From an uncultured Chitinophaga sp. (GTDB lineage Bacteria; Bacteroidota; Bacteroidia; Cytophagales; Cyclobacteriaceae), in assembly GCA_902168205.1 (NCBI GenBank), contig CABHOK010000007.1, forward strand, positions 248,001 to 312,000: DNA of 64,000 nucleotides, in the 5' to 3' direction. A program made the position numbers and the translations under genes. Shown here one piece after another: positions 18,319 to 45,647 of this stretch. The notes beneath the pieces are model-generated. The model saw only the letters and a list, made by a program, of their open reading frames with translations. It was not told where the DNA came from and did no database searches. The first letter of the stretch is position 1; the number at the start of each line of letters is the position of its first letter.

Positions 18319-19293
18319 ATGACACTTTTACAATCTATTGACGAGTTCCTTGAGAACATTACCGTCACCGACAGACAAGAGGAAAGTATAAAATCTTCTC
18401 TTTCAAACTTGAACGATCATTTACTTGACAAAGAAAATGATTTACACGTTCTCAGAACGTTTACGAATGGGTCTTACGAAAGAGACACCAACATCCGGCC
18501 ACTAAAAGATATTGACCTGTTTGCCGTCCTTGATTTTGAGAAATGGAAAGACAAAAATGGGAACCTGCCGACACCGCAGTCTGTATTAACGAAACTAAAA
18601 AATTATCTTAATGGATTGGATGACTATAAAGATAAGGTAAGACAAGATCGACCATGTGTAACAATCGAATTGAGCGATAAGGATTTTGATGTCTTACCAA
18701 GTTTTCCGCAAACCACGGGAGGCTACTTGATTCCAAATCACGATCTCTCAGTATGGACCTACTCGTATCCCGAGGAATTAACGAAAAATTTGAACAGCAT
18801 TAACAAAACAAGGAATTACAAAGTTAAGCCAACAATCAAGGCGTTAAAAAACTGGAACAGAGAAAATTTAAAATACATTCCGTCTTACCATATTGAAGAG
18901 GTAGCCATTAGTATTTTCCAGGTCAATAGCTTTACAAACTTTGAAGAAGCTATCAGGATATGGTATACCAACGCAGAGAATCACCTTGACCCTGGAAAGT
19001 TTGATTCATACAACGATTTCGAGACTGCTATCAAAAAAGTCAGAAAAGTAAAAGACAAACTGAAAGACGCAAAGGAATATCTTGACGATGATAAAGAGAC
19101 AAAGGCAAAACAAATCTGGAAGGATATTTTTGGCAAGGAATTTCCAGCCGTTGAAGAAGACGTAGAAGAGGCGAAGGCATTCTCAAAATCGCTCTCAGCC
19201 GGCACACTTAAGATTTCAAGCGCTGGCGCGTTATCGACATCCTCCGGCTACTCAGTTTCAGCGTCAAAAGGTTACTATGGCGATATATTATAA
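18319..19293 (+). CDS. CBASS CD-NTase (SMODS-type nucleotide cyclase)
   Basis: This 324-residue protein has the catalytic signature G51-S52 in FTNGSYERDTNIRPLKDIDLF, with D64 and D66 as the metal-binding pair and D124 in SDKDFDVLPSF as the third carboxylate. All key residues are present. Helical C-terminal parts follow (about 170-300), then a Ser-rich tail ending in GYSVSASKGYYGDIL. In type II CBASS, conjugation of the enzyme's C-terminus by an E2-like protein primes cyclase activity, so the Gly/Ser tail is notable. It overlaps the E2-like gene by 17 bases. The nucleotide product cannot be told from sequence. Confidence 0.85.
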   Translation: MTLLQSIDEFLENITVTDRQEESIKSSLSNLNDHLLDKENDLHVLRTFTNGSYERDTNIRPLKDIDLFAVLDFEKWKDKNGNLPTPQSVLTKLKNYLNGLDDYKDKVRQDRPCVTIELSDKDFDVLPSFPQTTGGYLIPNHDLSVWTYSYPEELTKNLNSINKTRNYKVKPTIKALKNWNRENLKYIPSYHIEEVAISIFQVNSFTNFEEAIRIWYTNAENHLDPGKFDSYNDFETAIKKVRKVKDKLKDAKEYLDDDKETKAKQIWKDIFGKEFPAVEEDVEEAKAFSKSLSAGTLKISSAGALSTSSGYSVSASKGYYGDIL

Positions 19294-19699
19294 ACCATAC
19301 AACTCCTTCATTCAAATAGCAGCAATGAAGTCACGGTTTCCTCAGTTTCGTGTGAAGCAGAAAGGAAACCTCGATATCCTTTTTACTGGAGAGTTGAAAG
19401 TCAAAGATGCTTATCCTTCATATACCATCTCCGTACATTATAGAGGTGACACGTACCCCTCTGTTAAAATTACTAAACCATCATTGGTTGATGATCCGCC
19501 ACATTTCTACAAAATGTTGGGCGAGCCGTGTCTCTATAAGCCAAAGAATTATCATTGGGACAAAAGGAAATTAGTTGCTACCGATATTGTCCCCTGGACA
19601 GCGGGATGGATCTATTTTTATGAAACCTGGCTCCGGACCGATAAATGGCTGGGCCCAGAAGCAGAGCATGACGAGCCTCAAAAAGAAAACCCCATTTAG
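19277..19699 (+). CDS. E2-like conjugating protein of type II-short CBASS
   Basis: This 140-residue protein has a short E2 fold: YTISVHYRGDTYPSVKI strands, then GEPCLYKPKNYHW with the candidate active Cys85, and the tail helix WTAGWIYFYETWLRTDKWLGPEAEH typical of prokaryotic E2 proteins. No E1 domain or Jab peptidase is present in the operon, so this is the short form (E2 only). In related systems the E2 joins the C-terminus of the CD-NTase to target proteins and so primes signalling. The start overlaps the CD-NTase gene by 17 bases. Confidence 0.8.
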   Translation: MAIYYKPYNSFIQIAAMKSRFPQFRVKQKGNLDILFTGELKVKDAYPSYTISVHYRGDTYPSVKITKPSLVDDPPHFYKMLGEPCLYKPKNYHWDKRKLVATDIVPWTAGWIYFYETWLRTDKWLGPEAEHDEPQKENPI

Positions 19700-19700
19700 A

Positions 19701-20480
19701 ATGATTAAACGAATTGTACCACACGAAGTATCTTTCAATCAGGTTGAACGAATAGGTTCTATCAATAACTACATTTTAATTGCGTCCACGGCAATTGTTG
19801 CCTCAACCATATTTTTTGAAGAGGCAATAAAGACCTCACGACAGTTGAATGATGGTTTGAACGCATTTAACTCACTGCTAATCGTCATGTATATCATCTT
19901 GGAAATCATTGGTTCGTTTCTGCTGCACAGAGCCGAGGCAAAAAGGCGACTTGATTTCATTGACAATTCGTTTGACACAAGCTATTCTGGAACGAAATCG
20001 GAGAATTATTTCACCAACGGAAATCTTTCACCTAATTTCTACAAGATGGCAGTTAATTGTTTTGAAAACACTTTCTTCACCTCAAACATAAGCAGGCGCA
20101 TGCTATTCCCATTATTCGTCAAAAATTTAATCATAATCGCAATCTTCGTCATGGCTGCAGCACTCGGGGAAAAACGAATCGTGGTTAACCTACTGCAAAT
20201 GGCATTGCCGATCCTGCTATTACAGCAACTTGTAAAGTTGTCACTTTATGTGTACAGCACCGAGCTTCAGTTGGCCAACTTCAAGGAACTATTTAATGAT
20301 TTGAAAAGTGAAAGTCATGAAAAGCGAATACCTGAAATGCTTAGAAATGTAATTTACTATGAAAGCAACATTAGCTGGGCTTCTATTCTCCTTTCAAAAA
20401 ATCTATTTAAGAAACTAAATCCAGACCTGTCGCAAGAGTGGAGTCGATTGAAGGATGAATATAAAATTCCAAAGATTTAA
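19701..20480 (+). CDS. S-4TM pore-forming effector of CBASS
   Basis: This 259-residue protein starts at the ATG at 19701, one base after the E2 stop. An in-frame upstream extension would only overlap the E2 gene. Four membrane helices are clear: about 22-42 (YILIASTAIVASTIFFEEAI), 55-77, 140-162 (LFVKNLIIIAIFVMAAAL) and 165-190. The cytoplasmic C-terminus is helical. The layout fits the SMODS-associated 4TM family. Once the cyclic nucleotide binds, such effectors are thought to breach the inner membrane and stop phage growth by killing the cell. Ligand and pore function are inferred from the family. Confidence 0.75.
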   Translation: MIKRIVPHEVSFNQVERIGSINNYILIASTAIVASTIFFEEAIKTSRQLNDGLNAFNSLLIVMYIILEIIGSFLLHRAEAKRRLDFIDNSFDTSYSGTKSENYFTNGNLSPNFYKMAVNCFENTFFTSNISRRMLFPLFVKNLIIIAIFVMAAALGEKRIVVNLLQMALPILLLQQLVKLSLYVYSTELQLANFKELFNDLKSESHEKRIPEMLRNVIYYESNISWASILLSKNLFKKLNPDLSQEWSRLKDEYKIPKI

Positions 20481-20491
20481 TTTACAGATCG

Positions 20492-21295
20492 ATGGATGTT
20501 GGCATAAATAACTATTTGAAAAGAATTGCGTCTGAGCTTCTGATCAAAGGTAATAGCATTCCCGGCATCAACATTGCAAGATCAATAGAGGTCCTTCAAA
20601 AAAATCTGATTGAGCATTTCCCAGGCGAATTAAGCTACGTCAAGGTGTTTGGTTCCTATGCGAGGGGAACTATGCTCCCGAGAGAATTTGATCAAAACTC
20701 CGACATTGACATATTGATTGGTTTCAATACAACGAGTTCAAAGCTGAGGCCGGAATCCTACAGAGAGCGCTTAAAGAAATTTGCTTTCAAGCATTATCCC
20801 AATGCCAAAGTGACAAAAGATCATCCATCAATCGTAATCGAACTTAATCATGTTAACTTCGATTTAGTTCCAAGTATTTTCGACAAAGGAATCATCTGGG
20901 ACAGTATTGAGATTCCTGACAAAGATGGAGGATGGATGGAAACCGACCCGGAAAAGTTCAGCAAAAAATTAACTGATGCAAACACCAGTTACAACTCAGT
21001 CGTAAAGCCAATCGTGAGACTTCTAAAGGCGTGGAACGCACATCAAGGATATCCATACTATTCGTATGATCTTGAATCTGCAATAGTTGATATGAGCTTT
21101 AGCTCTGACACGTACTCAAGCGGTTTCTTTTATGCAATCGCTGAATTACCGACTTACTCGTTACCAAACGTTTCATCAAAGAAGGTCGATGTACTGCGTA
21201 ACCATGTTACTTGGATAAAAGAGTATTTGTCGCGAAATGAACTGTCAAAAGCAAAAGAGGTAGTGAGACGAATCATTCCAGTTAAAATTAATTAA
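20492..21295 (+). CDS. Second nucleotidyltransferase of the CBASS operon
   Basis: This 267-residue protein is distinct from the CD-NTase. It has VFGSYARGTMLPREFDQNSD with G54-S55, then D71 and D73 (SDIDILIGF) and a third Asp at 124 (VNFDLVPSIF). The active-site residues are all intact, so it should transfer nucleotides. The C-terminus lacks the Gly/Ser tail of the first enzyme. It lies 11 bases after the effector gene and ends the operon. It might make a second signal, tune the first enzyme, or modify RNA. Second transferases in short type II operons are known from genome surveys; their role is not established. Confidence 0.8.
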   Translation: MDVGINNYLKRIASELLIKGNSIPGINIARSIEVLQKNLIEHFPGELSYVKVFGSYARGTMLPREFDQNSDIDILIGFNTTSSKLRPESYRERLKKFAFKHYPNAKVTKDHPSIVIELNHVNFDLVPSIFDKGIIWDSIEIPDKDGGWMETDPEKFSKKLTDANTSYNSVVKPIVRLLKAWNAHQGYPYYSYDLESAIVDMSFSSDTYSSGFFYAIAELPTYSLPNVSSKKVDVLRNHVTWIKEYLSRNELSKAKEVVRRIIPVKIN

Positions 21296-21339
21296 GCAAC
21301 AATCGAGATCATTTTAAAGTAAGCGTTGATGATCTCACT

Positions 21340-21502
21340 CACTCTGCCTACCTTTGTTCCAGTAACAAACACGACAACATTTTCTTCAGGGATGTTTAGA
21401 GATGTTAAGTGATGCTTCGGTAATTTTTGTTACCATTTTGTTACTCAAAGGGTGCAACGCCCTGGCTATCAATAAAGGACATATTTTGTATCGGTAAATA
21501 GT
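21340..21502 (+). repeat. Element end A: arm sites plus recombination core
   Basis: GGGATGTTTAGAGATGTT begins near 21389. A pair of TTGTTAC sites follows at 21427-21433 and 21438-21444 (11 bases apart), then the core ATTTTGTATCGGTAAATAGT at 21483-21502. The same order recurs at 29.7-29.9 and 35.4-35.6 kb. I read this as the right end of the conjugative element. The match is seen directly; the recombinase role is inferred, as no integrase gene lies in the window. Confidence 0.6.
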
Positions 21503-21599
21503 CGCTTCAACTAATTGATAATCAGCTAATTAAAAATTCAGAACAGAATGTGAAGTAAAATTCAATTATCTGACTTTCAGGTTATTAGCGAAATCGCTC

Positions 21600-21690
21600 C
21601 TCAATTCCGGTGCATTTTTGTTGCTAGTTTGTTGCTCAAACCCAAACATCCCTAAATAAGCAACAAAAGTTTTTAGGTTCATTTAGGTGT
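21600..21690. repeat. Inverted arm-type boxes, candidate left end of the next element
   Basis: Two TTGTTGC sites (21618-21624 and 21629-21635) are followed by AAACATCCCTAAA (21644-21656), the reverse complement of the TTTAGGGATGTTT box seen in end C. An inverted TTGTTGC (GCAACAA, 21660-21666) comes next. The mirrored box suggests the left end of an element running from here to end B. The remainder of the 446-base gap 21296-21741 holds no gene that I can see. Confidence 0.45.
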
Positions 21691-21741
21691 TCAATTACCC
21701 AAATGTCGTAACTTAATACGTCAAATGACGTATCTATTTTT

Positions 21742-22164
21742 ATGATAAAATTTCTGGAACATCTAGGTGAAGCCGGCTTAGGGGAAGTTGATTCAAGGCA
21801 AGGGTTGTGGCATGCAATCCGTCAGCGGCCGTTAAAGAAAAGACATGTAATTTTCATTTCATTTAAACTTGGCCTACCGCAAAAAGATACTGCAGAATTA
21901 ATCGGAGTTTCAGTAAGAACTTTTCAGAGACAAAAGAGAACGGCTAATATTACCAACGCAGCTTCTGAGAATGTGATTAAACTCGCAGAACTGTACGAAG
22001 TTGGGCTAACGACATTTGATAACGATGAAGAATCATTTCATGCTTGGTTAAATGCGTCTGTACCCGCACTGAACAACGAAAGACCAATTGACCTTCTATC
22101 CTCCGCTCTTGGGATAGACCTTGTTAAAGATGAGCTTCTTAGAATTGAATACGGTATTTACTGA
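21742..22164 (+). CDS. Xre/ParS-type antitoxin (DUF2384 C-terminus)
   Basis: This 140-residue protein has an Xre-like helix-turn-helix around LGLPQKDTAELIGVSVRTFQRQKR (residues 35-60). The C-terminal DUF2384/MbcA-ParS domain (FHAWLNASVPALNNERPIDLL, then ALGIDLVKDELLRIEYGIY) is the part that holds the toxin. Its stop and the start of the RES gene share one base (TGATG), the tight coupling expected of a toxin-antitoxin pair. It should bind its own promoter just after the element end. Confidence 0.85.
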   Translation: MIKFLEHLGEAGLGEVDSRQGLWHAIRQRPLKKRHVIFISFKLGLPQKDTAELIGVSVRTFQRQKRTANITNAASENVIKLAELYEVGLTTFDNDEESFHAWLNASVPALNNERPIDLLSSALGIDLVKDELLRIEYGIY

Positions 22165-22616
22165 TGCTTGTATATCGGATTCAAAAAGCCAAGTATGCTG
22201 CTGATATAAGTGGCTTCGGATCAACACTTGTCGCAGGACGTTGGCACTTAGCTGGTAAAAGTCCAATTCTATATACATCAAGTAATATTTCGTTGGCAAT
22301 TTTAGAATATGTGGTCCACTTAACCTCATCTGTTAAACCGCCTGAATTGTTACAATTAACGCTGGAAATTCCTGACCCTTCCATTGTGACGATAGATCAT
22401 GCTAATCTTCCTGATAATTGGAATGCGAAAGGATACTTCGACAACGTACAGCGGTGGGGAACAGAATGGCTGCAAAGCCTGGCATCATTGGCAATTATGA
22501 TTCCCTCTGTAACTTCTCCCGACAATAATATCTTAGTCAATCCACGTCACCCTGACTTCGGATCTGTAAATATAATTGACAGTAGGCCGATTACTTTGGA
22601 CGATAGGTTGATATAA
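22164..22616 (+). CDS. RES-domain toxin
   Basis: This 150-residue protein is a complete RES domain: an N-terminal VYRIQKAKYAAD strand with Arg5, then GRWHLAGKSPILYTSSNISLAILEYVVH with the conserved Arg, Tyr and Glu, and an IPSVTSPDNNILVNPRHPDF end with the conserved Ser and NP/HP residues. RES toxins remove NAD+ and stop growth. The start at 22164 overlaps the antitoxin stop by one base. It is the first cargo pair after the element end, and may stabilise the element or act against phage. Confidence 0.85.
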   Translation: MLVYRIQKAKYAADISGFGSTLVAGRWHLAGKSPILYTSSNISLAILEYVVHLTSSVKPPELLQLTLEIPDPSIVTIDHANLPDNWNAKGYFDNVQRWGTEWLQSLASLAIMIPSVTSPDNNILVNPRHPDFGSVNIIDSRPITLDDRLI

Positions 22617-22700
22617 CTAAACGCGTTCTCATGAAGAAACCTTCATTAAAAAAAAATGCTGCTCAGTTCTCCTTTCGGCAACATATTGTAAAGCCTGCTA

Positions 22701-25700
22701 ATGCCTTTTCACCAATCCCCAGCCGACTCTCCGAATGTAACACTCAACTTAATGAATGAAGAAGAAATAAGGAGCAAAATACTCTTACCGTTTTTAAAAG
22801 ATTTGGGTTTCGAACTCACCGATATTTCTTTAGAAACAAGGTTTACAATTCGACTTGGAAAGTCTAAGCATAAGGTTGGGCGATCAGATATTTTATGCAA
22901 GCGCGATGGTAGAAATTTGTTCGTCATCGAATTAAAAAATGATTCGGTCACCATTAACCAGCGTGATATTGACCAAGGAATTTCGTATGCGCGGCTATTG
23001 CCTGATAACATAGCTCCGTTTACGATCGTCAGCAACGGAGTAACGATCCGAATTTTTGATTCCATCTCGCGTGAAGAATTAACCAATAGTAAAATTTCAG
23101 AACGATCTGAATACTGGAAAAGTGGATTCACATTATCGTCTGAAATCGATCTGAAAATAAGATACGAGGCTCTTACAAACTTCGTATCATTCTCCCTGGA
23201 AAACTTAAAAGTATTCTGTGAACATCAGGTTAGTGACAGAATGGGAACTATCATTGGCAACATTGATAATCCTTATGCTAAGTTTGTTAAAGAACTGTAC
23301 GTTGAACGAGTAAGCCTTCAAAAAGAGTTCAACAATTTCGTGCAATCCGATTGTAAAGTTTTTGGGATAGTCGGTGAAGCTGGTGTTGGCAAAACCAGTG
23401 TCATGTGTTCATTGGCGCTGCAAAAAGTTGAAAAAGGATTTGTCTTCTTTTATAACGCACCGATCATCAATAAATCTCCTATTGAACTTATTGCACAGGA
23501 TCTGAACCTTGCGTTTTCAAGCAAAAGCGAAAGCGATACAATCTTAAAGAAACTTGATGCGTTGGGGAGACATCTAAACAAGGATATCATCATTTTCATT
23601 GATGCGATAGACGAAAACAGAGACACACATTTGGAACTTGACCTGAGTGAAATAGCGCTTACCCTGAGAAATCTAAGTCGCATTAAGATGTGCGTCAGTT
23701 GCAAGTCAAGTGTTTGGAATAGTGTAGTAAAGCGAAATAATACTCCAACTCATCTTTATGAGGAGTTGCAAAAATACCACTCTAGCAATCCAAAATTACC
23801 CGGCAATAATCCAGGCTTTCATCTTGAAGACTTCAGCGAAGACGAGGCGCGAAGTATCATTCCACTATACAAAAAGGCTTTCGGATTTAAGGGTGAAATT
23901 TCAGCCCAGCTATTGAAGGAATTAAGAAATGGATTCTTTCTTAGAATCTTTAGTGACGTCTATAGTAATCGTGAAATACCCAGCCAGATTAATGACACAG
24001 AATTGATCAGGAAGTATCTGAAGCAATCGCTTGACAGCACACCGACAGGTTTTGAATCAGGCATCAGAATATTATCCAGAATTGGAGAAATTTTGATTTC
24101 GCATCCGTTCAGCTCGAGTGAAACCTTCCACAAGGAAGGTGTTACTGTTGAGGATATTCTTGAGCATTTGAGTTTTGCGCTGGACGAAAAACTACCCGAA
24201 GATTTATTCTCCCGGACGATACTTATCCGGTCCAGCAAAGATGATAAGGAGACAGTAGCATTTTACTATTCGAAAATCCGAGATTACATCATATGTTATC
24301 ATTCGTTTAAGCTACACAAGTTGACAGATGATCAATTCTATAATCTACTTGACAAATTTTATCTGAATTATATCGGTGAAAGCGCTATCTCATTTTACAC
24401 AGACCATGCAAGTTCGGCCCAGAGACGCATAATTGCGAAGTTTAAAGAAGATAAGGGCTGTGCTTATGCAGCGCTGTACCAATCTTATTTAGACGAACAT
24501 TTCAAAAGGTTCAAGACAAAATTTGACCCAGGGACTGAGGGCGATATTGGAATCTTTCTACCCGTTGATTTACTGAATACAGACGGATATGCGTTATTCG
24601 CTCTTGCTTCAGGATCATCCGATAGAGTCCAACATATCGAGGTGAAAAAGGGATTTATTACCGAGCCTGATGACGATAAGCTTTTTAAAAAGGGAGCGAG
24701 AAGAATATTTGGAAGCAATAAGTCACTATTAGTTGCTGACCAAGGTAAAATTGTTCGTGAGAACGTTTACAAACAGCTAAAAGACATCATTGCAAAGGGA
24801 AAGCTTAATTCGTACAACTCCGACATTCTTCTACTCGAACAGTTGTCAGTGATTCTCTACTATTACAGGACGAAACTCCACTACAAGGATGAACTGAAAG
24901 ATCTTTATTTACCTAGGCTCAACTTACTTTATCCGATTGATTTAAACATACTGAGAGATCAACTTTACAAATTCATTGTTACCGAACATTATCAACGTAA
25001 GCGAAAATTCACAAAAGAGGCAGTCGCACAAAAGGTTGAAGAGGCTGTGCGCGAGGGCCGGGAGGTACCCAAGCTACACATCTCTGGTGACTTCCCTCCT
25101 TTTGAAGAATTATTCAAGATTGTCGAGATACTAATCAACCGTGGCTACACCCTTCTTTCCGAACATCATCTTCCTTGCCCGGACATACCTATACGCGAGG
25201 TACGTACGCATGACGGGGTTAAAAGGCTTGAACCGCACTGGAGTCGGATCTTGCAATTCAGCGAAGGTCAGGCAAAATTGTATATCGAAAGTTTCTTGAA
25301 ACACTTTGATTCTGCATACAGAGATTTTGTGGATTACAATTTCCCAACATTCAGGAACAAGTTTCCATTTTATAACACAATGCCTCATGAATACTTCGTC
25401 TACATGAAAGATTCGGATGTGCTGAAATGGGGACATTTAGGATATCGCCAATCGGAAACGGGGAAAGTTGAAGTCAATTTCAAAGAACTTATATCAAGCG
25501 AGAAAATATTTGAACAAAAGGAGACTGAAATTTTGCATGCATTTTCTCTTGATCACATTCTTCATGTTGATTACTACCATACAATCCCGACCGTAGATAA
25601 ACTCAGAACTTCTGAAGTTGATGACTTCTGCATTCTAAGAAATTGGGTGTATCAATTTTTGAAGGACGATATGAGAGAAATTTTCAAGGCGAACGGTGAG

Positions 25701-25709
25701 CACATATAA
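22701..25709 (+). CDS. HSDR_N-type nuclease fused to a STAND-like ATPase
   Basis: This 1002-residue protein has, at residues about 20-120, a type I restriction HsdR_N-like nuclease domain with Asp in GRSDILCKRDG and the E-L-K motif in FVIELKND. A P-loop NTPase follows: Walker A GEAGVGKTS (near 223) and Walker B IIIFIDAIDENRD (near 297), typical of NACHT/STAND proteins. The last 550 residues are helical with no recognised repeat and probably sense a target. The design (nuclease, NTPase switch, sensor) matches anti-phage STAND proteins such as Avs. It is followed by a SMEK-domain gene after 23 bases. Which phage molecule it senses cannot be told. Confidence 0.75.
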   Translation: MPFHQSPADSPNVTLNLMNEEEIRSKILLPFLKDLGFELTDISLETRFTIRLGKSKHKVGRSDILCKRDGRNLFVIELKNDSVTINQRDIDQGISYARLLPDNIAPFTIVSNGVTIRIFDSISREELTNSKISERSEYWKSGFTLSSEIDLKIRYEALTNFVSFSLENLKVFCEHQVSDRMGTIIGNIDNPYAKFVKELYVERVSLQKEFNNFVQSDCKVFGIVGEAGVGKTSVMCSLALQKVEKGFVFFYNAPIINKSPIELIAQDLNLAFSSKSESDTILKKLDALGRHLNKDIIIFIDAIDENRDTHLELDLSEIALTLRNLSRIKMCVSCKSSVWNSVVKRNNTPTHLYEELQKYHSSNPKLPGNNPGFHLEDFSEDEARSIIPLYKKAFGFKGEISAQLLKELRNGFFLRIFSDVYSNREIPSQINDTELIRKYLKQSLDSTPTGFESGIRILSRIGEILISHPFSSSETFHKEGVTVEDILEHLSFALDEKLPEDLFSRTILIRSSKDDKETVAFYYSKIRDYIICYHSFKLHKLTDDQFYNLLDKFYLNYIGESAISFYTDHASSAQRRIIAKFKEDKGCAYAALYQSYLDEHFKRFKTKFDPGTEGDIGIFLPVDLLNTDGYALFALASGSSDRVQHIEVKKGFITEPDDDKLFKKGARRIFGSNKSLLVADQGKIVRENVYKQLKDIIAKGKLNSYNSDILLLEQLSVILYYYRTKLHYKDELKDLYLPRLNLLYPIDLNILRDQLYKFIVTEHYQRKRKFTKEAVAQKVEEAVREGREVPKLHISGDFPPFEELFKIVEILINRGYTLLSEHHLPCPDIPIREVRTHDGVKRLEPHWSRILQFSEGQAKLYIESFLKHFDSAYRDFVDYNFPTFRNKFPFYNTMPHEYFVYMKDSDVLKWGHLGYRQSETGKVEVNFKELISSEKIFEQKETEILHAFSLDHILHVDYYHTIPTVDKLRTSEVDDFCILRNWVYQFLKDDMREIFKANGEHI

Positions 25710-25732
25710 CTAAATAAAAGGCATCGATAGTT

Positions 25733-26851
25733 ATGGACATTCGTAAAAAGTCTCTTGACCACATTGTTCAGCAGCTCACACACGTAAAAAGTCACGTCAT
25801 TGCACGAGCCGGGCTTCGATTAAATGATTTGAATATCCACGCGGAAGAATTTTTCAAATCATTATTGAATATGGTTTACGGTTATAAACTAGTCAATCTA
25901 AATCTTGACGATATTTTTAAAACTGCAATTGATCTAGCTGATCCAGATGTTAAGATTGCATTTCAGATAACCTCAGAGAACTCCCGAAAAAAGATTAACG
26001 AAACACTAAGAAAGTTTTGTGAGAATGAATCCCACAAGGAGTTTAGGACTCTCAAAATTTTGATCATTGGGGATGCACCAAGCCGGAAAGGAGATTTCAA
26101 ATTTGAAGATTTCCTATTTGATTATAATAAGGACGTAGTTGACATCAATGGACTTCTCCGAGTTATTCAGGGATTGGACACTCAACTTTTGAAGGAGATT
26201 TCCGATTGGCTTACACGGGAGTTTGATCGCAAACAAAACTACAGTTTTTCCATTCCCGATAAACAAGACTTTGAGCGGTACTTTGCTATGTTCCTTAATC
26301 CAGACAATGATGCCCGCCTATTATTACTTCAGGCACAACCCACACTTGCAGATTGTAAGGAGATTTTTGCAGAAGAATATTATCGACACGTTCATAGTCT
26401 TTACACCATTTATTACTATCAATTATTAGAAGAGTCGAAACTAAACAACACGTTTCGAGACAAGGATTTTTTTATCAGTAAGTCATCCACTTACGCGGAA
26501 CTTAGAGATGGTATTGCGCGCCACTTACCTGGCGGGATGACAGACGCATTCAAAATGGGCGCATTGAGGCCAGGAAAAGTCAGTTACTACACCATTTCTT
26601 TCATTGCGAATGGCAAAGAACACGGAGTATCGTTCAAGCTTTGGGCTTATCTTAATAACCGTTGGGTTTTCTTTCCCAAACCGTGGCAAATTGCTCAGGG
26701 AATTCACGAGCTTAAGACAAACTCAAGATTCCGATTTTTAATAAAAGCGTTAAAATTTTTAGGGGTTAAAAGTATCCGGTCGCAAGACGATGCACATCGT
26801 GTTTTTATGACAGTATTTCTATTGGGCGAGTTTACTTCGGAACAAAATTAG
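25733..26851 (+). CDS. SMEK-domain protein, candidate partner of the STAND ATPase
   Basis: This 372-residue protein's N-terminal 130 residues fit the SMEK domain pattern: NIHAEEFFKSLLNMVYGYKL, then AIDLADPDVKIAFQITSEN (residues about 63-85) and a following KINETL helix. The acid residues plus Q-I-T-S suggest a restriction-nuclease-like fold. The C-terminal 200 residues are helical and unrecognised. It lies 23 bases after the STAND gene in the same orientation, so it is probably co-transcribed. A two-protein anti-phage unit is my inference. Confidence 0.65.
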   Translation: MDIRKKSLDHIVQQLTHVKSHVIARAGLRLNDLNIHAEEFFKSLLNMVYGYKLVNLNLDDIFKTAIDLADPDVKIAFQITSENSRKKINETLRKFCENESHKEFRTLKILIIGDAPSRKGDFKFEDFLFDYNKDVVDINGLLRVIQGLDTQLLKEISDWLTREFDRKQNYSFSIPDKQDFERYFAMFLNPDNDARLLLLQAQPTLADCKEIFAEEYYRHVHSLYTIYYYQLLEESKLNNTFRDKDFFISKSSTYAELRDGIARHLPGGMTDAFKMGALRPGKVSYYTISFIANGKEHGVSFKLWAYLNNRWVFFPKPWQIAQGIHELKTNSRFRFLIKALKFLGVKSIRSQDDAHRVFMTVFLLGEFTSEQN

Positions 26852-26886
26852 TTTAAATCAATACACACCAGTCTAAAAATGCGATT

Positions 26887-27103
26887 CTAATCATTTCTCA
26901 TTTTCATTTTCCAATAATTGATTGTATAAGCTGTTAGGGTTACCGCAAAAGATATCGAAACCAAAACACTTAGGACAAGTCCCAAAAAGTACAATGTGCA
27001 CAAATTATAGTATTCCGCTGCACCAACAGAGGTCAAAGTCACAAGCAGGGCCCACAAGTTTTTGATTTAAGTTTATTTTAAAGTTATCGGTGTTCATATG
27101 CAT
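26887..27103 (-). pseudogene. Frameshifted small membrane protein
   Basis: From the ATG at 27103 (or the second, at 27097), the first frame stops early. If one A is dropped from the A5 run at 27059-27063 (minus strand), it runs on to the TAG at 26887-26889. That gives about 71 residues with a polar start and two membrane helices (LWALLVTLTSVGAAEYY and YFLGLVLSVLVSISFAVTL), then YWKMKMRND. It starts 13 bases after the 810-residue membrane protein gene. The break may be a sequencing slip, a dead gene or slippage; no tool here can tell. Confidence 0.45.
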
Positions 27104-27116
27104 TTGATTTTAAGTA

Positions 27117-29549
27117 TCAAAATGTTTGAATCTCATCCAAGGCATTTTGTATCCCACCCTCTTGAAAGGCGTCAGTTGCTCTTAAAGAAACAATCCTGAC
27201 ACCTTTCTTGAACCAGCAATAGGCGAGAAAATCCACGTTTATATCGACCATGTTTCTTAACTCTGCTTCACTTCTTACTTGCTGTTCCAGGTATCTGTTA
27301 AGCAACTCTTGATTCTTGTCTAATTCCGTGAACTTACGGTATATTTTCAACGGTTCATCAATGATCTCCAAATTTTCCCACCACTTCTTAACGTCCTCGC
27401 TTAATCCCTCCAAATCTTTCCAGTCCTTGTGTTTGATCATTGGGAAGTCAACTTTCCGCAGGACGTATAATGTGTACTCTGCAAAAGGGACGTTGACATC
27501 AAATGTGTAGATGGGAATTCCCTTGTATTTATAATCTTCGTCACCTGTATGATCTTGAAAGTCTATCTGCCCAGACTCTTTCAAATACTCGATGTCAACG
27601 TTGAATGCGATAATAGCGTGCTCATCCGCTTTAAGTTTTAACCGATCCACCGCATCAAAAAACAACTCCCTTTTTACTTGATAGCTAACTGTCGTGTTCG
27701 AGCTAAACTTAATAGATATATGACCACAGTAATCACTTTTTATTTTACTACCAAGAAAATTATCAAATCCAAAATAGCTCTCGCTCGAATTTTTAACAAG
27801 CGCTTCTTTATCAATTGCGGTTCTTTCCCCTCGAATGACTTGCATCGTGTCACTAACCGGATCTCGCTCATTTGCGGCAACATCTTTTCCCGCAATTCTA
27901 GAGAACATATCATGGGCATTGCGGATGGCCACGACTGTACGTTCATCAAATTGCTTCATCAGATCTTCATCAAGCTCTAGATTATTCAGTGTTTCTCGAA
28001 ATCCATCTTTTAAGGCCTGCTCCAATTCATCTAAGAAATCCAAAGGATGCGGGAGTCCCCGTTTCTTGCACTCAGCTGGGTTAATCCAATCGAGTTTAAG
28101 TTCACGCATAACGTCTGTATCAGAAATGAATTCCTCAACCTTCTTTCGAAAATGGGCCAGGTTTTCCTGCCAGTACTTTTTATCTGATTGTTCAACTGGC
28201 AATTGTGGGATTGTTAATCGACTGTAGCCATAGTGAAAAGGGGTCAACCATTGTTTCAAGAAAACTAAGGTGAGATAATTTCGTCCGATGGATTTCACAT
28301 CCATCCTGCCGTTCATTGCATCAAACTCAATATCTTTAAAGAAATATGGGATAGTAAATCCGTGATCGAAAACATCAGATCCCAGATATGAGAAATAAAG
28401 TTTAAATATTTCGGCCATTGTATCAGGCACCAATACATAAGATGGGGGTTGCGACTGCGTAAAAAACCAAACCCTGAAAAGGGCCTTATATCTCTTTTTG
28501 TACATTAAATATGCACCAAGAAATGTATGTAATTGGACGAATGATGTTTTATGAGCCGCTAGTTTATTCCTGAATTCTTTGCTTTCATTTGTCTCCTCAA
28601 AGTCATCATTGTATTGAACTCTAAGAGTTTCCAGATTATACCTACAATACTGGTGAGCACTTTCCCAATATCTATAAATCTTATCATCTCGGTCATTTTC
28701 GACCAGCAAAAATAAATTGTTCCAAATACCTTGATAAGTCTGTTGGTGTAAAAATTGTTTGTTCTCATAGTCACCCGTAAAGAACGCGTTCCCTACGAAG
28801 AATTCTATGTTCTGATGATAATGATCGTCCTTATTCCGAATGAATGTCGCGATGATGTCATAGGTACTATTGTACATCTCAGTAGGAAAGAGGACAATCT
28901 CTTGGCCCCGTTGATCCGCATATTTTATAAACGCAAAGGCGTTTGCTATAAATTTTTGCCTTATGTCCTCCTGTAGCTTTCTATCTCTTCCGGTAATAGC
29001 GTAAACATACAGATCAACTATTGAATGCCAGATATTTAAGATTTCTAACTTTTTCTTCCGAATGAGTTTTTGTTTCCCTTGATATTTTGAAATGTCCGCG
29101 ATGTCTAACCGCTTACTATAAAAGCTAAATAAATCTTTTCCGCTTAGGTATGTAAGAAGGAGGCGAATGTTAAAAAAGAATGCTAACAATAGGTTAACGA
29201 TCAAAAGGAAATCTAAAAAGATGAATTGCTTGAACTGTGTTACACATAACAACGTAACAAAGACGGAACTTATTAGAGACCAAAGAAACCATTTATGACG
29301 TGGTTCCTTTTTAAATCTGTCGATGATATGAGTCGACTTGTACTGATCGTTTAACCTACTAATGGTTTGAATAATTAACGGATAGGAAATGCTTAAAAGA
29401 CCAGGAATAAAAGCAATCGTCACCCTGAATACCTCAGAATCCGCTAGCGTACCGAAGAAATGGACAATTGATTCAACGGTAGTTGAAAAGCTTTCTGAGA
29501 TTGTTAACAGTAAATTCTTGATGAAATCACTGCATGCTAAAAGTTGCAC
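27117..29549 (-). CDS. Large membrane-anchored protein, unknown function
   Basis: This 810-residue protein starts with GTG at 29549, since no nearer in-frame ATG exists. Three membrane helices lie within the first 160 residues (for example VTIAFIPGLLSISYPLII, FLWSLISSVFVTLLCVTQF and FIFLDFLLIVNLLLAFFF). About 650 cytoplasmic residues follow, rich in aromatic and charged residues. I recognise no motif or family. It faces the STAND/SMEK genes and ends the cargo of the 21.5-29.8 kb interval. A short IR (29568-29582) is upstream. A membrane-bound effector or sensor is one reading; function is open. Confidence 0.6.
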   Translation of the reverse strand: MQLLACSDFIKNLLLTISESFSTTVESIVHFFGTLADSEVFRVTIAFIPGLLSISYPLIIQTISRLNDQYKSTHIIDRFKKEPRHKWFLWSLISSVFVTLLCVTQFKQFIFLDFLLIVNLLLAFFFNIRLLLTYLSGKDLFSFYSKRLDIADISKYQGKQKLIRKKKLEILNIWHSIVDLYVYAITGRDRKLQEDIRQKFIANAFAFIKYADQRGQEIVLFPTEMYNSTYDIIATFIRNKDDHYHQNIEFFVGNAFFTGDYENKQFLHQQTYQGIWNNLFLLVENDRDDKIYRYWESAHQYCRYNLETLRVQYNDDFEETNESKEFRNKLAAHKTSFVQLHTFLGAYLMYKKRYKALFRVWFFTQSQPPSYVLVPDTMAEIFKLYFSYLGSDVFDHGFTIPYFFKDIEFDAMNGRMDVKSIGRNYLTLVFLKQWLTPFHYGYSRLTIPQLPVEQSDKKYWQENLAHFRKKVEEFISDTDVMRELKLDWINPAECKKRGLPHPLDFLDELEQALKDGFRETLNNLELDEDLMKQFDERTVVAIRNAHDMFSRIAGKDVAANERDPVSDTMQVIRGERTAIDKEALVKNSSESYFGFDNFLGSKIKSDYCGHISIKFSSNTTVSYQVKRELFFDAVDRLKLKADEHAIIAFNVDIEYLKESGQIDFQDHTGDEDYKYKGIPIYTFDVNVPFAEYTLYVLRKVDFPMIKHKDWKDLEGLSEDVKKWWENLEIIDEPLKIYRKFTELDKNQELLNRYLEQQVRSEAELRNMVDINVDFLAYCWFKKGVRIVSLRATDAFQEGGIQNALDEIQTF

Positions 29550-29567
29550 AATGAGCTAGTTTTGAGG

Positions 29568-29582
29568 TCGGGTTTATCCCGA
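29568..29582. promoter_or_regulatory. Inverted repeat upstream of the membrane protein gene
   Basis: TCGGGTTTATCCCGA has perfect 5-base arms (TCGGG/CCCGA) around five bases. It lies 18 bases before the GTG start of the 810-residue gene and may act as operator or hairpin leader. Function is inferred. Confidence 0.3.
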
Positions 29583-29679
29583 ATTTAGCTATTGTAATCG
29601 TAAATATCATCATTGGTGATTTTTGTCGCCATTATCCTTTACTTGACACTAAAAGCGGTTGATGTTCTACTTGCCAATA

Positions 29680-29872
29680 TCTACCTTTGTCACACGAACA
29701 AACACCTAAAAAACTCTTTCGGGATGTTTAGTTTTTTCTAGCGATGATTAGGTATTTTTTGTTGCTAGTTTGTTGCGCGAGGCCTTCAACGTTTTGATTC
29801 TCAGTCTTGAGAAGATTTTGTATCGGCAAGTAGTTTGTAATCAAATATCTACACGAATAACACCATTTAATT
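29680..29872 (+). repeat. Element end B: arm sites plus 58-bp repeat
   Basis: GGGATGTTTAG lies near 29721 and TTGTTGC occurs at 29759-29765 and 29770-29776 (11 bases apart). The core ATTTTGTATCGGCAAGTAGT sits at 29815-29834, continuing to 29872. The 58 bases 29815-29872 match 35501-35558 with one mismatch. It marks the junction between the defence interval and the decayed metal interval. No tRNA or gene end is visible in the core itself. Confidence 0.65.
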
Positions 29873-29876
29873 GAAG

Positions 29877-31045
29877 TAGTTTCGACTTAATCTGACAGTT
29901 GGGTTAACTTAGAAGTGCATGTCGTATGATGGGATATTCACGCGACAGTTTTTTATCGTATCAAAGAGTTGTTTGATACCGGAGGGGAGCTCGCCCTTAA
30001 AGAAGTTAGTCGGAGAAAAGCCATTCCAAAAAATCGAGTTGAGCTTCATGTAGAGGAAGCCGTTGTTTTACTAGCAACCGAACAGCCGGCACTCGGTCAA
30101 GTTCGTGCATCAAATTAGCTACGCAAGCGTGGTATATTTATATCTCCTTGTGGCGTTCGTTGTGTATGGCAGCGTCATGATGTGGAAACATTTTCCAAAC
30201 GCTTAGCTGCTCTCGAAGCTAAAGTGGCTCAAGAAGGACTTATTCTTACCGAGGCACAAATGATTGCTATGGAAAGGAAGCGAGAGAAACGTGAAGCTTC
30301 TGGTGGAATTGAGACTGAACATCCTGGGTATCTTGGAGTTCAGGATACATATTATGTGGGCAACATTAAAGGTGTTGGCAGAATCTATCAGCAGACCTTT
30401 ATCGACACCTATTCAAAGGTAGCTTTCGCTAAACTATATGATCGCAAGAATGCTATCACAGCAGCCGATATGCTTAACGATAACGTGGTGCCATTCTTCG
30501 AGGAGCAACAAATTCCATTGCTGCGAATATTAACCGATCGTGGCACAGAATATTGTGGTAAAGCAGAGTACCATGAATATGAACTATATCTACAGATCGA
30601 AAATATTAAACACTCTAAAACACAAGTCAAGAGCCCGCAGAGTAATGGCATTTGCGAACGCTTTCATAGAACTATACAAGATGAGTTTTATGCTATAGCT
30701 TTTCGAAAGAAGCTGTACGAGTCGTTAGAGTCATTACAGAAGGATCTCGACCAATGGATTGAAGAGTATAATGAACAGAGAACGTATTCAGGAAAGCACT
30801 GCTTTGGAAGAACACCTTGGGAAACCTTTGTCGCCTCTAAAGAACTAGCGACTACTAAAATGATTGATGGCAACTGTCAATCGGCATGAGTATACTATCG
30901 CATTACTTCCTCATAATGGCTTCGGCTGTGCGAAAGCCTTTGCGTGGCCACTCGCGAAGCCCTTGACTTCTTGGGAGCGGTGGCTACCTTTGCCTGTGAG
31001 GAAGGAACGCCAGCCTAGCTCAACTGTCAGATCAAGTCTTAACTA
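29877..31045 (+). mobile_element. Decayed IS481-like insertion sequence
   Basis: Imperfect 27-base terminal inverted repeats lie at 29877-29903 and 31019-31045 (23 of 27 positions match, inner part CTGACAGTTG). They enclose one broken transposase gene. No clear target duplication flanks it, which fits deletion or rearrangement on one side: the P-type ATPase fragment begins right at the right end, and the element starts five bases after the 58-base repeat. Confidence 0.6.
29905..30889 (+). pseudogene. IS481-family transposase, broken by frameshift and stop codon
   Basis: The intact 235-residue portion (30182-30889) holds the DDE residues: D in [10 protein letters not shown] in [10 protein letters not shown] and E in NGICERFHR. 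Upstream the helix-turn-helix region can be followed (CRMMGYSRDS, FDTGGELALKEVSRRK), but it is broken in two or three places. An extra T in the T6 run near 29949 shifts the frame, a TAG near 30115 replaces the usual Glu of SNELRKRG, and a TAA precedes CRMMGYS. It is therefore not functional. Identity with the IS481 family rests on remembered sequence. Confidence 0.7.
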
Positions 31046-31444
31046 TTACAGATAATATTTTACTCGATTGTGATCAGTGCTGCCGGGCTTGGCGCGGTCA
31101 CGACAAGTCACTTCCTCCTTCACAAGGAAGAAGGATGGAATCCTGAACTCTGCAACAACATCTTATTCTTCACACTGATCGGCTCTCAATTGCTACACGT
31201 ATTGAACATGAATGCAAGAGGAACAACCATATTCAAATCTGAAATCACTCGAAACAAATACGTATGGTATTCAATCCTTGTATGCGTTGCTATTCTAATA
31301 GGATGTTACGAAATAACTCCTGTAAGCCAAGCGCTCTCATTGTTCCCGCTTACAATTTTTGACTGGACAATAATTATCACATTCAGTTTCGCGGGTCTTA
31401 TCATCAACCAACTTGCTAAAGTGTTCAACATCATAAAACAATGA
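31046..31444 (+). pseudogene. C-terminal fragment of a P-type cation ATPase
   Basis: The open frame begins right at the right end of the insertion sequence (LLQIIFYSIVISAAGLG...) and runs for about 132 residues. Four membrane helices and the motif NNILFFTLIGSQLLHVLNM are typical of the C-terminal region of cation-transporting P-type ATPases. The catalytic domains, including the phosphorylated Asp, are missing and are not seen elsewhere in the window. It is a remnant cut by the insertion sequence. Confidence 0.7.
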
Positions 31445-31447
31445 GCC

Positions 31448-31952
31448 ATGAAAACTCTATCACGAAAAGAAATCTTCCCTGCGTCATCGCAGCAAGTATT
31501 CAAAACAATAGATGATCTTGGCGTTACCGGAATGCACATGACAGAATCGTCAGGAATGATGATGGGAAGCAAATTGGATTGAATTTTTAACCACTAACAG
31601 AACAGGAATAGGGTCGCGTTATCGTTGGACTGGGAAGATGATGGGCATCCCAATGGACTTCACAGTTGCAGTAACTAAATGGGTTGAAGGAAAGGAGAAG
31701 GTCTGGGAAACGATCGGTCCGACCAAACTAATAATATATTCGTGGTATCGCATGATTCTCCAAGTGAAGCAACAAGGAGAAAAAACAGAAGCAGAATTAT
31801 CAATTACTTATGAAAAACCTGCAGGCCTTTTTAATAAAATACTCTGCTTCTTCTTAGCAGACTGGTATTGCCGTTGGTGTTTACGTCAGATGCTTGGCGA
31901 TGCGAAGAAAAGATTGGAACAACAAATGAGCATTCAGTCAGTTTCGATATAG
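31448..31952 (+). pseudogene. SRPBCC-family protein, frameshifted
   Basis: From the ATG at 31448 the frame gives MKTLSRKEIFPASSQQVFKT and ends at a TGA at 31580-31582 after 44 codons. A second frame continues at once as EFLTTNRTGIGSRYRWTGKM and runs to 31952, with the KWVEGKEKVWET strand and a C-terminal helix ending MLGDAKKRLEQQM. The joined product is a typical SRPBCC/polyketide cyclase-like domain of about 168 residues. The one-base shift makes it a likely pseudogene. The start codon overlaps the end of the ATPase fragment. Confidence 0.65.
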
Positions 31953-32000
31953 CAACGTAGTAACAACAATGTTTGTCTTACTCATAAGATCACAGAAATC

Positions 32001-35000
32001 ATGATTAAGAAACTGATAAGCTGGTCGATCAAAAGCAAATGGATGGTGCTAATCATGTATTCCATCATGATCGTCTACGGGATTTATTCTGTTTACAACA
32101 CACCTGTCGATGCAATCCCAGACCTGTCAGAAAATCAGGTCATCATATATACGGAGTGGATGGGAAGGAATCCTCAGATCATAGAAGATCAAATCACGTA
32201 CCCGTTAACATCGAACTTACAGGGTATTCCGAAAGTGAAGAATATTCGTGGCGCTTCCATGTTTGGAATGAGTTTCGTCTTTATCATTTTCGAAGACAAT
32301 GCGGATATATACTGGGCGCGTGCTCGCGTGTTGGAACGGTTGAACTATGCAACAAGACTACTTCCTTCAAATGTAACGCCTACCCTCGGTCCGGATGGAA
32401 CGGGCCTTGGCCATGTCTACTGGTACACCCTTGATGCTCCAGGATATGATCTTGGAGAGCTACGAGCCTTGCAAGATTGGTATGTGCGGTTCGGCCTTCA
32501 AACAGTCGAAGGTGTGAGTGAAGTCGCTTCCTTCGGAGGATATCAGAAACAATATCAGGTTGTGGTTGATCCGATGAAGCTTCGTTACCATGGAATAGCC
32601 TTGATGGACGTTGTAAACAAAATCAAAGAGAACAACAATGAAGTCGGAGGTCGAAAGTTTGAATTGTCTGACATCGGATACATTATTAAAACCACTGGCT
32701 ACCTCAAAAATATAGATGAAATTGAAAACATCCCACTTAAAACGGTCAACACAACACCGATACGAATAAGGGACATCGGCACCGTTCAGATGGGAGGCGA
32801 CTTACGCTTAGGAATCGTTGATGAAAATGGTGAAGGCGAAAAGGTAGGCGGAATAGTGATTATGCGCTATGGCGAAAATGCAAAAGAGGTTATAGACCGT
32901 GTCAAGACCAAAATCGAAGACATCAAAAAAGGTCTCCCGGAAGGAATAAATATTAAACCCGCCTATGACCGCTCTGACCTGATCAATGCTACCATTGATA
33001 CTTTGAAAGAAGCGGTGACTGAAGAAATCATTGTAGTTGCTATCGTGCTGTTCATTTTTTTATTACACGTCAGGAGCGCACTGATAGTCGTGATCACAAT
33101 ACCTGTATCCGTTCTTTTTGCCTTCATACTGATGAAGTGGTTTGGAATTACTTCCAATATCATGTCGCTGGCTGGCGTGGCACTGGCGGTAGGCGATTTG
33201 GTCGATGCAGGAATTGTAATGGTGGAGAATGCAATGAAGACAATTGGTGGCGAAGCTGAAACAAATTGACAATGGAAGAGACGCGAATAGATAAGATTGA
33301 AAAGTCCTCGCAGTTGATTGGCAAAGCTGTGGTGAGCTCTATTCTCGTTACGCTCATCTCGTTTAGTCCGATTCTTTTTTTAACGGGTCAGGAACACAAA
33401 CTCTTCTCTCCTCTTGTATGGACGAAGACATTTGCAATGATCGGTTCGGCATTGGTCGCAATCATGCTAGTCCCGGTTTTGATGGCCTTATTCCTAAAAG
33501 GAAAAGTCAGGCCTGAAAGCAAACATCCTATAAGTAAATTCCTTACGCGGATCTATGGACCGATCATAAAATGGTGTCTGAAATGGAAAAAGGTTACCCT
33601 CGGGCTCGCGCTTGCTTTGGTGCTTGGAAGTGTTCCACTCGTTATCAAACTTGGAACGGAATTCATGCCGTCATTGGATGAAGGCTCACTGTTATTCATG
33701 CCAGTCACGTTGCCGGATATTTCGAACAACGAAGCAAAACGTCTACTTCAAGTACAGGACAGGATAATCAAGTCAATACCCGAGGTTGAAAATGTTTTGG
33801 GAAAGGCGGGTCGTGCAAACACTGCAACAGATAACGCTCCCATCAGCATGATTGAAACAATAATCATACTCAAACCTCAACGAGAATGGCGTGACGGAAT
33901 TACAAAGGACGATATCATCCGCGAGTTAAACAGTAAACTGGCTATCCCGGGAGTGATCAACAGTTACACTCAGCCAATCATTAACCGAATCAACATGCTG
34001 TCAACCGGGATCAGGACGGATGTTGGGATCAAGATCTATGGCCAGAGTCTTGATTCAATCAACATACTAGCCCATGAATTTAAAAAACAGCTCGAAGGCC
34101 TTGAGGGAGTTGCTGACCTGTATGTTGAACCAATTGTGGGCGGGAAATACATTGACATAAAGATTCGAAAGGAAGAAATAGGCCGATATGAATTGACCGT
34201 GGATGATATCAATATGTTCATTGAAACTGCACTGGGCGGAATGAACGCAACAACAACTATAGAAGCTCGTCAGCGCTTTCCTGTAAATGTGCGGTTCGCA
34301 CAGGACTACCGTAATACAATTAATCAAATCAAGAATCTGCAGGTACAGACAAACAACCTCGGTCCTATTCCATTATCAGCTGTCGCAGAAGTTAGTGTTA
34401 CTGAAGGGCCGCCAATGATTAATTCAGAGAACGCGATGCTCCGGGGTACTCTTCTTTTCAACGTCAGAGGCAGAGACATGGGAAGCACAGTTTCAGATGC
34501 AAAGGAACGCCTGGAGAAAGCTGTGAAGAACTTACCAAAGGGTTACTATCTGGATTGGAGCGGTCAGTACGAAAATCAAGTTCGGGCACAGGACAGGTTG
34601 ATGGTGATCATCCCCATAGTTCTGATAATTATACTTGCGGTGCTGTACTTCACTTTCAATAATATGAGAGAAGTACTGATCGTGCTAAGTAGTATTCCTG
34701 TCGCACTGGTTGGCGGAGCATACTCCTTGCATTTCTTTGATGTCAATTTTTCGGTTGCCGTGGCAGTTGGCTTTATCGCATTGTTTGGTATTGCAGTCGA
34801 GACTGGCGTATTAATGCTGGTCTACCTGAACAACTCTCTCTACTTCAAAATAAAAAATCATACATCCGGCAAGGTTACAAACGAGATCATCGAAGACGCA
34901 GTGTACGAAGGTGCTGTTCAACGCCTTCGTCCCAAACTCATGACTGTGCTTGTGGACGTCATCGGATTAATGCCGGTACTCATCGCTACCGGAACTGGAA

Positions 35001-35155
35001 GCGATGTGATGAAACCGATTACTATTCCCTTTGTGTTTGGATTGTTGACGTCAACGCTGTTTGTGCTAATTGTGCTTCCAGTGATATATGCTTACGTCAG
35101 AGAGCGGGAATTGTGCAAAAGAGGTACCTTAGATCACAAACTACTTGAGGATTAA
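32001..35155 (+). pseudogene. CusA/CzcA-type heavy-metal RND efflux pump, split by a frameshift
   Basis: Frame one (32001-33269, 422 codons) gives MIKKLISWSIKSKWMVLIMYS, the periplasmic domain, and the pump core motif GDLVDAGIVMVENAM, then stops at TGA 33267-33269. Frame two (33266-35155, 629 codons) starts at TTG and continues with RIDKIEKSSQLIGKAV, a second membrane block and a TGSDVMKPITIPFVFG segment. Joined, the product has about 1,050 residues, the usual CusA length. The break falls just after TM4. Both neighbours are also broken, so decay is more likely than two separate genes. Such pumps export copper, silver, zinc or cobalt; the ion is not clear here. Confidence 0.7.
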
Positions 35156-35400
35156 ATTTATAGATCACTCAACGGATTACCCTCGTTTGTCATATCACTT
35201 TTCATATTAAACCTGATCTGCAAGAACTCGGCTATCGCTTCCAAATTTGGAATCCGTGATCTATTCTCCAATCCCCGCGAATTCAAAACATTGATCGGAT
35301 ACTTGTTGCAAAGCAATTGCCTTCATCGTATAAGAATCAATTGTAAACACTCTCTGGTGTACCCCTTACTTTTCCTACCCGTAAGAGGAGGTTAAAATTT
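35156..35400. other. Non-coding stretch with possible gene remnant
   Basis: No intact gene is visible. On the minus strand a 48-codon open stretch ending at 35158 reads like a protein tail (KYPINVLNSRGLENRSRIPN... ending NPLSDL) but has no start or family I recognise. It is probably a remnant of an element gene. The element end follows from 35401. Confidence 0.3.
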
Positions 35401-35558
35401 CTTTAGGGATGTTTAGAGATGTTGAGGTGTATTTAGGTAAATTCTTGTTACCATTTTGTAACTCACAGAACGCAAAGTACGGACGATCGTTGAAGGGCAC
35501 ATTTTGTATCGGCAAGTAGTTTGTAATCAAATATCTACCCGAATAACACCATTTAATT
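35401..35558 (+). repeat. Element end C: arm sites plus 58-bp repeat reaching the AraC gene
   Basis: TTTAGGGATGTTTA (35403-35416), TTGTTAC at 35445-35451 and TTGTAAC at 35456-35462 (11 bases apart) precede the core ATTTTGTATCGGCAAGTAGT at 35501-35520. The repeat goes on to 35558, matching end B except for one base. It covers the stop codon of the AraC-type gene (35553-35555). This looks like the right boundary of the integrated stack. Confidence 0.65.
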
Positions 35559-36449: not shown

Positions 36450-36592
36450 AGCCGGCTTTCATTTTTCTATTCAAAATTACGTGTTGTAAAGCCCTTTTCG
36501 ACACCGGCAGGCACTAATCAGTAAAATTGGTAGGTAAACCAGTAATCCGTATAAGTCCCCTGGCCTGGCATTATAACACCTTTGTAGCGTAA

Positions 36593-37585
<993 letters not shown>

Positions 37586-37601
37586 ACTTAAAGAAGAAAA
37601 A

Positions 37602-38675: not shown

Positions 38676-38681
38676 TCCACC

Positions 38682-39152: not shown

Positions 39153-39184
39153 TTCGAGCTACTGAGGCTCAAACTATAATCAAT

Positions 39185-40279: not shown

Positions 40280-40293
40280 AACTAATCAAGATT

Positions 40294-41166: not shown

Positions 41167-41186
41167 TCCGGATTAAATACAACACC

Positions 41187-41801: not shown

Positions 41802-41821
41802 CACAATCAAGCCGATCTGCA

Positions 41822-42553: not shown

Positions 42554-42580
42554 CGAGACACAATAGTTAGGAATGATTAA

Positions 42581-43492
<912 letters not shown>

Positions 43493-43510
43493 CTACCAAC
43501 AAACCATAAA

Positions 43511-45124: not shown

Positions 45125-45159
45125 TTTCGTAACTTATAAACACATTAAACACAATAGCC

Positions 45160-45618: not shown

Positions 45619-45647
45619 AATTGATCGACTCACCATAATGTAACAAT

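Follow-up and report, generated by a model that had tools for sequence, protein, structure and literature searches.

Cis-mobilizable elements (CIMEs), as described in published reports, have lost the genes for integration and transfer while retaining both attachment sites, attL and attR, and they lie in accretion with integrative mobilizable elements (IMEs) or integrative and conjugative elements (ICEs), of which they are by definition deletion derivatives (PMC5704250); the order CIME-ICE-target gene has been tabulated (PMC7563491). In Dehalococcoides, 15 of 31 islands at ssrA have no integration module, and mobilization in cis has been proposed for them (PMC3146451), the arginine catabolic mobile element (ACME) is excised by the recombinases of a neighbouring element, as demonstrated with ccrAB2 supplied in trans (PMC2768820), and the Salmonella genomic island 1 (SGI1) family inserts at the 3' end of trmE (a synonym of mnmE) in Gammaproteobacteria (PMC8409611). 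Here, we describe A-B, an interval of 8,332 bp within a 64,000-nucleotide stretch of DNA (the window; C7:248001-312000 of a 7.3-Mb genome), which is probably a CIME that has accreted in tandem to an ICE of the tyrosine-integrase type inserted at the mnmE 3' end. Among the matches listed in searches of the open-access literature, no report of mnmE arrays in Bacteroidota was found.

Attachment sites of A-B and the boundary of the ICE

The gene order at the locus is mnmE - ICE (89.7 kb) - A - A-B unit (8.3 kb) - B - B-C unit (5.7 kb) - C - AraC cluster, where A, B and C are directly repeated cores that copy the last codons of mnmE (its 3' end). The gene itself lies ~90 kb leftward of A; its intact copy ends at C7:179759, downstream of which lie an HTH_17 gene and two tyrosine recombinases. 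The ~100 bp leftward of each core are repeated too. A search of the 7.3-Mb genome with the core pattern ATTTTGTATCGGNAARTAGT (at most two mismatches) returns three sites, namely A, B and C, and the reversed control returns none. Additionally, each end of A-B carries an arm box: the left and right boxes agree in 21 of 22 bases, a 21-nt stretch of the left one (21615) recurs exactly in the B end (29756) with no other copy in the window, and the 20-nt box occurs twice in the genome, once per end. The box pattern TTTTGTTRCYRGTTTGTTRC has four sites in 395 genomes of the phylum, three of them here (the left end of the ICE and both ends of A-B), against 0 for its reversed control among the matches listed; the sole other exact match is G653:C59:72084-72103 (L154). 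The rarity of both core and box rules out a chance repeat as their origin. The boxes of the ICE are found 125 bp to the right of the mnmE core and 59 bp to the left of core A, and the ends of A-B share this layout, with one box ~59 bp left of a core and another ~130 bp right. The preliminary description of this DNA had placed mirrored boxes at 21.60-21.69 kb, as for a left end, and these correspond to the left arm box, AAACATCCCTAAA and the inverted GCAACAAAAG box of Table 1.

A-B directly adjoins the ICE and resembles it in base composition (37-39% and 37-43% GC, respectively), both of which would suit a reading of A-B as merely the distal end of that element. However, a related ICE ends at the same core, and core A is preceded by a perfect right box; we, therefore, consider this reading very improbable. 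The related ICE is a 121-kb element at mnmE in G111, a genome of another genus: Int1, one of the two tyrosine integrases of the ICE, is 94% identical between the two genomes (compared with 79.6% for MnmE), and the right end of the G111 element matches window positions 21326-21502 (92% over 178 bp), the match stopping with the core. As this ICE ends at core A, A-B lies outside the ICE, unless the G111 element is itself truncated, and the earlier view of A-B as a separate unit beside a conjugative element is upheld.

Genes between the cores

Five uninterrupted open reading frames (ORFs) occupy A-B (Table 1). The preliminary description had read them as defence-like; Pfam matches recover the Xre/RES pair, the nuclease-STAND protein and the SMEK protein that it named, the latter two with PADLOC matches as well, and the block is likely to be anti-phage. 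The large gene that it had called a membrane protein is also present, but its 810-residue product has no match in Pfam, PADLOC or the PDB sequences from which to assign a family; the STAND protein, for its part, has no match among the PDB sequences. The interval was further said to be devoid of integrase and transfer genes, and we concur: no tyrosine recombinase, serine recombinase (resolvase) or relaxase was found in it (Pfam on the genes plus genome-wide searches), no relaxase or conjugation family of Pfam matched the five genes or the interval (oriT was not searched for), and neither tblastn nor a local integrase profile revealed a hidden integrase remnant. A phage satellite, to which A-B had been likened, fits less well: the five genes have no Pfam match to phage-related functions (integrase, packaging, interference; PHROGs was not searched), and a CIME in accretion with an ICE is the closer likeness.

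Relatives of the STAND protein were found in Niastella caeni (58% identity; the sole locus in the contig search) and in two of the 294 other family genomes (60 and 34%). Together with RteC and the YWFCY coupling protein of the ICE, the Niastella relative suggests that the family is part of Bacteroidota. Three of the loci with relatives were checked for an mnmE-type core, namely, those of Niastella, G190 (STAND) and G177 (810-residue protein), and none convincing was seen in the surrounding 18-23 kb: in G190 an 18-mer with two mismatches to the core sits within an ORF with no mnmE adjoining, and G177 has a core-like match with four mismatches. Core A is flanked on either side by a high density of defence genes, the LmuA/LmuB-like and CBASS-like (cyclic oligonucleotide-based antiphage signalling system) genes of the ICE being followed by those of A-B.

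Table 1. Positions in the window of the attachment sites and genes of A-B and of its neighbours
Feature	Position	Strand	Remarks
Core A	21483-21502	+	Direct-repeat core; right attachment site of ICE and left boundary of A-B
Core B	29815-29834	+	Direct-repeat core; right attachment site of A-B
Core C	35501-35520	+	Direct-repeat core
Right arm box of ICE	21425-21446	+	59 bp left of core A; 0 mismatches
Left arm box of A-B	21616-21637	+	132 bp right of core A start
AAACATCCCTAAA of A-B left end	21644-21656		Sequence reading
Inverted GCAACAAAAG box of A-B left end	21660-21669	-	Sequence reading
Right arm box of A-B	29757-29778	+	59 bp left of core B
Right arm box of B-C unit	35443-35464	+	2 mismatches
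Xre-type antitoxin	21742-22164	+	PF09722, PF20432
RES-domain protein, likely toxin partner	22164-22616	+	PF08808
HSDR_N nuclease and STAND-type ATPase, Avs2-like	22701-25709	+	PF13588, PF04313; PADLOC Avs2 E 7.9e-17 (ATPase part)
SMEK-domain nuclease (SMEK_N)	25733-26851	+	PF21941; PADLOC Aga_REase; PDB 26bh Mrr domain of Mrr-APAZ protein
810-aa protein, no family match	27117-29549	-	Five of the 294 other family genomes encode relatives (25-32% identity)
Right part of ~90-kb ICE	1-21482		Left end at mnmE, C7:179742, outside the window; right boundary from G111
ICE LmuA/LmuB-like genes	1148-4679		
ICE RteC	6331-7149		
ICE coupling protein (YWFCY)	7152-9095		
ICE relaxase	9106-10350		
ICE CBASS-like genes	18319-21295		Two SMODS cyclases with 4TM effector
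B-C unit	29835-35500		
Insertion sequence (IS)-like element with rve ORF in B-C	29867-31055		
P-type ATPase C-terminal fragment in B-C	31070-31444		
RND pump gene in B-C, split over two ORFs	32001-35155		
AraC regulator and metabolic gene cluster	35553-47918		Same cluster attachment-bounded in G305

Units at mnmE across the family

The pattern TTYTGYATHGGNAARTRR of the MnmE C-terminus was run over 295 family genomes, and 55 chosen genomes were re-listed; besides the window array, 50 pieces were fetched from 49 other genomes, along with ends from seven more. The resulting census is a sample, biased to genomes with at least two sites. It counts 39 units and excludes 33, either for want of a right box at seven or fewer mismatches or because mnmE coding sequence precedes the second core; the excluded units include G305 unit 3 (right box with 11 mismatches), a single G115 unit (eight mismatches) was not entered, and eight of the 39 rows (G006, G111, G102, G287, G195, G178, G141 and the first G305 unit) were entered manually.

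A right box (up to seven mismatches) was found at 42 of the 68 core rows (41 of 66 distinct) without mnmE coding sequence upstream, compared with 1.1% of shuffled flanks and none of the 66 cores that follow mnmE sequence. Because the motif was derived from these same sequences, the fixed positions of the boxes, which cluster at -58/-59 (26), -81 (9) and -71 (4), are the more independent sign. A left box (up to five mismatches) accompanies 18 of 124 core rows (17 of 123 distinct) versus 0 of 1240 shuffles. The 39 right-box units fall into 30 arrays: 17 have an integrase (median size 29.9 kb), and 22, from 15 genomes, have none (8.75 kb). Integrase-less units between attachment sites are, then, a frequent occurrence at the mnmE genes of this family. 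Inside these 22, no tyrosine recombinase (PF00589) was seen among the matches listed, to near E = 0.001, nor any serine recombinase (PF00239) or relaxase (PF03432), all in genome-wide searches. In 13 of the 30 arrays, no counted unit has an integrase, and units of this kind can, thus, occur without being joined to an element that bears an integrase; the exceptions among the 13 are G006, with an integrase next door, and G128, with a low-similarity recombinase after the last core. The preliminary description had made its reading depend on similar small units elsewhere. Such units exist, but defence cargo is not general among them.

Of the 234 non-window genes in 29 units of 17 genomes, 229 entered the cargo scans (the other five fell across stretch ends), and among these units are some that were later excluded (G036 unit 6, G305 units 2-3, G022, G188, G206 and G278); family tallies refer to the 25 commonest families per set, and PADLOC was applied to one of the three sets (74 genes) and to ten single proteins. 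The tallies contain type I restriction-modification, Fic, Eco57I-type methylase, SusD and FecR families together with two-component signalling and redox genes; single scans add permeases, a desaturase and transporters, and carbohydrate-use genes are held by other units too. One set also gave tRNA-synthetase matches, but it includes the excluded units G188 and G206, which may hold ordinary chromosome. A uniformly defensive cargo at mnmE units is refuted by the signalling, redox, carbohydrate-use and permease genes. The largest accumulation of sites noted, in G036 (C1:596-684 kb; L049-L053), comprises 10 sites (seven strict and three relaxed) in ~80 kb downstream of mnmE; signalling and redox genes make up most of its cargo, and neither a tyrosine nor a serine recombinase was found in the array. 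There is also a second class of mnmE-linked repeat (L059, L109, L110, L113, L114 and L117), in which a copy of the 3' coding part of mnmE lies downstream of the gene and arm boxes are absent.

To the right of A-B, the two ORFs of the RND pump gene in the B-C unit overlap in different frames, as if the gene were broken. The 45 bp right of core B (29834-29879) are 94% alike to the 45 bp right of core C (35520-35565), as if B-C once had a left end of the AraC-cluster type, before the IS-like element entered at 29867. A relative of the AraC cluster lies between two cores, without an integrase, in G305 (unit 3; L115:5904-15793). The two clusters share 10 protein pairs of at least 45% identity (range 49-92%), seven of which exceed the identity of MnmE (71.6%), which is suggestive, at the level of sequence comparison, of movement of integrase-less units between genera. 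In G305, the DNA match gives out 1.1 kb short of the right core, and the search for a right core of the window cluster found none.

Proposed mobilization of A-B and its relation to described systems

The identification of A-B as a CIME draws on attachment sites (cores plus boxes) at both ends, no integration genes in between, no match to conjugation or mobilization genes (oriT aside, as above) and accretion with the ICE at core A. An IME is rejected, as A-B has no integrase of its own. We infer that A-B may be excised, transferred and active in defence, in the following manner. Int1 of the ICE would recombine the mnmE site with core B, whereupon the ICE and A-B would leave and transfer jointly, in cis; as both arm boxes are kept, Int1 could possibly also excise A-B alone, in trans. 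Maintenance of the unit would be aided by the Xre/RES pair, with the STAND and SMEK nucleases acting against phage.

A number of observations weigh against this interpretation. No circle or junction of A-B is visible in the sequence, and searches with the STAND and 810-residue proteins found no other copy of the whole cassette. Moreover, the left box is missing from 19 of the 22 units without an integrase, a pattern to be expected if they are deletion remnants: at up to six mismatches, this box is present in 14 of 17 integrase-bearing but only 3 of 22 integrase-less units (Fisher p = 2e-5), as if the arm and the integrase had been deleted together. Genome-wide, an intact full-length integrase with 40% or higher identity to Int1 could not be found in 12 of the 15 genomes that carry integrase-less units, so that many of these units may be stranded; the Int1-like integrase of G015 (42% identical) contains a stop, and, apart from G006, none of the 13 genomes with integrase-free arrays gave an intact one at that threshold. 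With left boxes and integrases missing in its relatives, the main rival reading takes A-B for an older element whose integrase was deleted and which now stays in place as a fixed remnant. We regard this as a possible, albeit less probable, account: A-B keeps both boxes in near-identical form, has no trace of an integrase and retains all five of its ORFs uninterrupted.

The remaining difficulty concerns which integrase would recognize the ends. Int1 is the sole full-length integrase of its type in the window genome, the others being at most 31% identical or a short piece at 49%. The boxes of A-B read GTTGC, whereas those of the ICE read GTTAC, and the right end of A-B is nearest to ends in G006 (72.5% over 171 bp), G158 (74.6% over 122 bp), G206 (74.6% over 122 bp) and G188 (73.8% over 107 bp). 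The elements of G006 and G158 carry a different integrase; the G006 enzyme is 45.7% identical to Int1, and that of G158 is split over two ORFs. A-B might, accordingly, belong to that type of element, with ends that the resident Int1 cannot use, and move only when such an element visits. This seems improbable, as related elements mix box types: the G006 interval C22:32333-73645 opens with a GTTGC box and closes with a GTTAC box, although further degenerate cores lie inside it and it is, therefore, likely to comprise more than one unit. The cognate integrase of A-B may be of either type. As to a possible origin by deletion from an ICE or IME, its right end is related to integrase-bearing elements in G006 and G158, but no integrase remnant was found in A-B.

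The integrase-less units with a left box are three: A-B, the G006 interval and a 3.3-kb unit of G120 that carries a MacB/FtsX-type permease. It is conceivable, if rather doubtful, that these two-armed units are passengers that cannot move autonomously and depend on an integrase supplied in trans, the end of mnmE being a shared docking site at which cassettes accumulate over successive integrase visits, with G036 as the extreme case. The target gene, core, arm boxes and spacing together provide a sequence-level handle on how defence genes may travel without a recombinase of their own, and make the question of which integrase serves which ends directly testable.

A CIME in accretion with an ICE is an element of an already known kind, and A-B would be a further case. 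For the wider comparison, it is pertinent that the Ccr proteins of ACME and the staphylococcal cassette chromosome (SCC) are serine recombinases, and that SGI1 carries its own integrase. A-B resembles the CIMEs described elsewhere in its retained attachment sites, its lack of integration and transfer genes and its tandem position beside an ICE at a gene's 3' end; it differs in phylum and target gene, and deletion origin, which belongs to the definition of a CIME, is only a candidate for A-B. The ssrA islands of Dehalococcoides are likewise stacked in tandem at one gene, many without an integration module, but their modules encode serine recombinases, their target is ssrA and their cargo is mainly reductive dehalogenases (PMC3146451). 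ACME/SCC elements, which likewise form composite islands at one gene end, offer a precedent in the excision of ACME by CcrAB in trans for the use of a neighbour's recombinase proposed here, and differ in their target, orfX, and in their staphylococcal hosts (PMC2768820). The SGI1 family inserts at the 3' end of the very same gene, albeit in gammaproteobacteria and with mobilization by IncA/C plasmids (PMC8409611).

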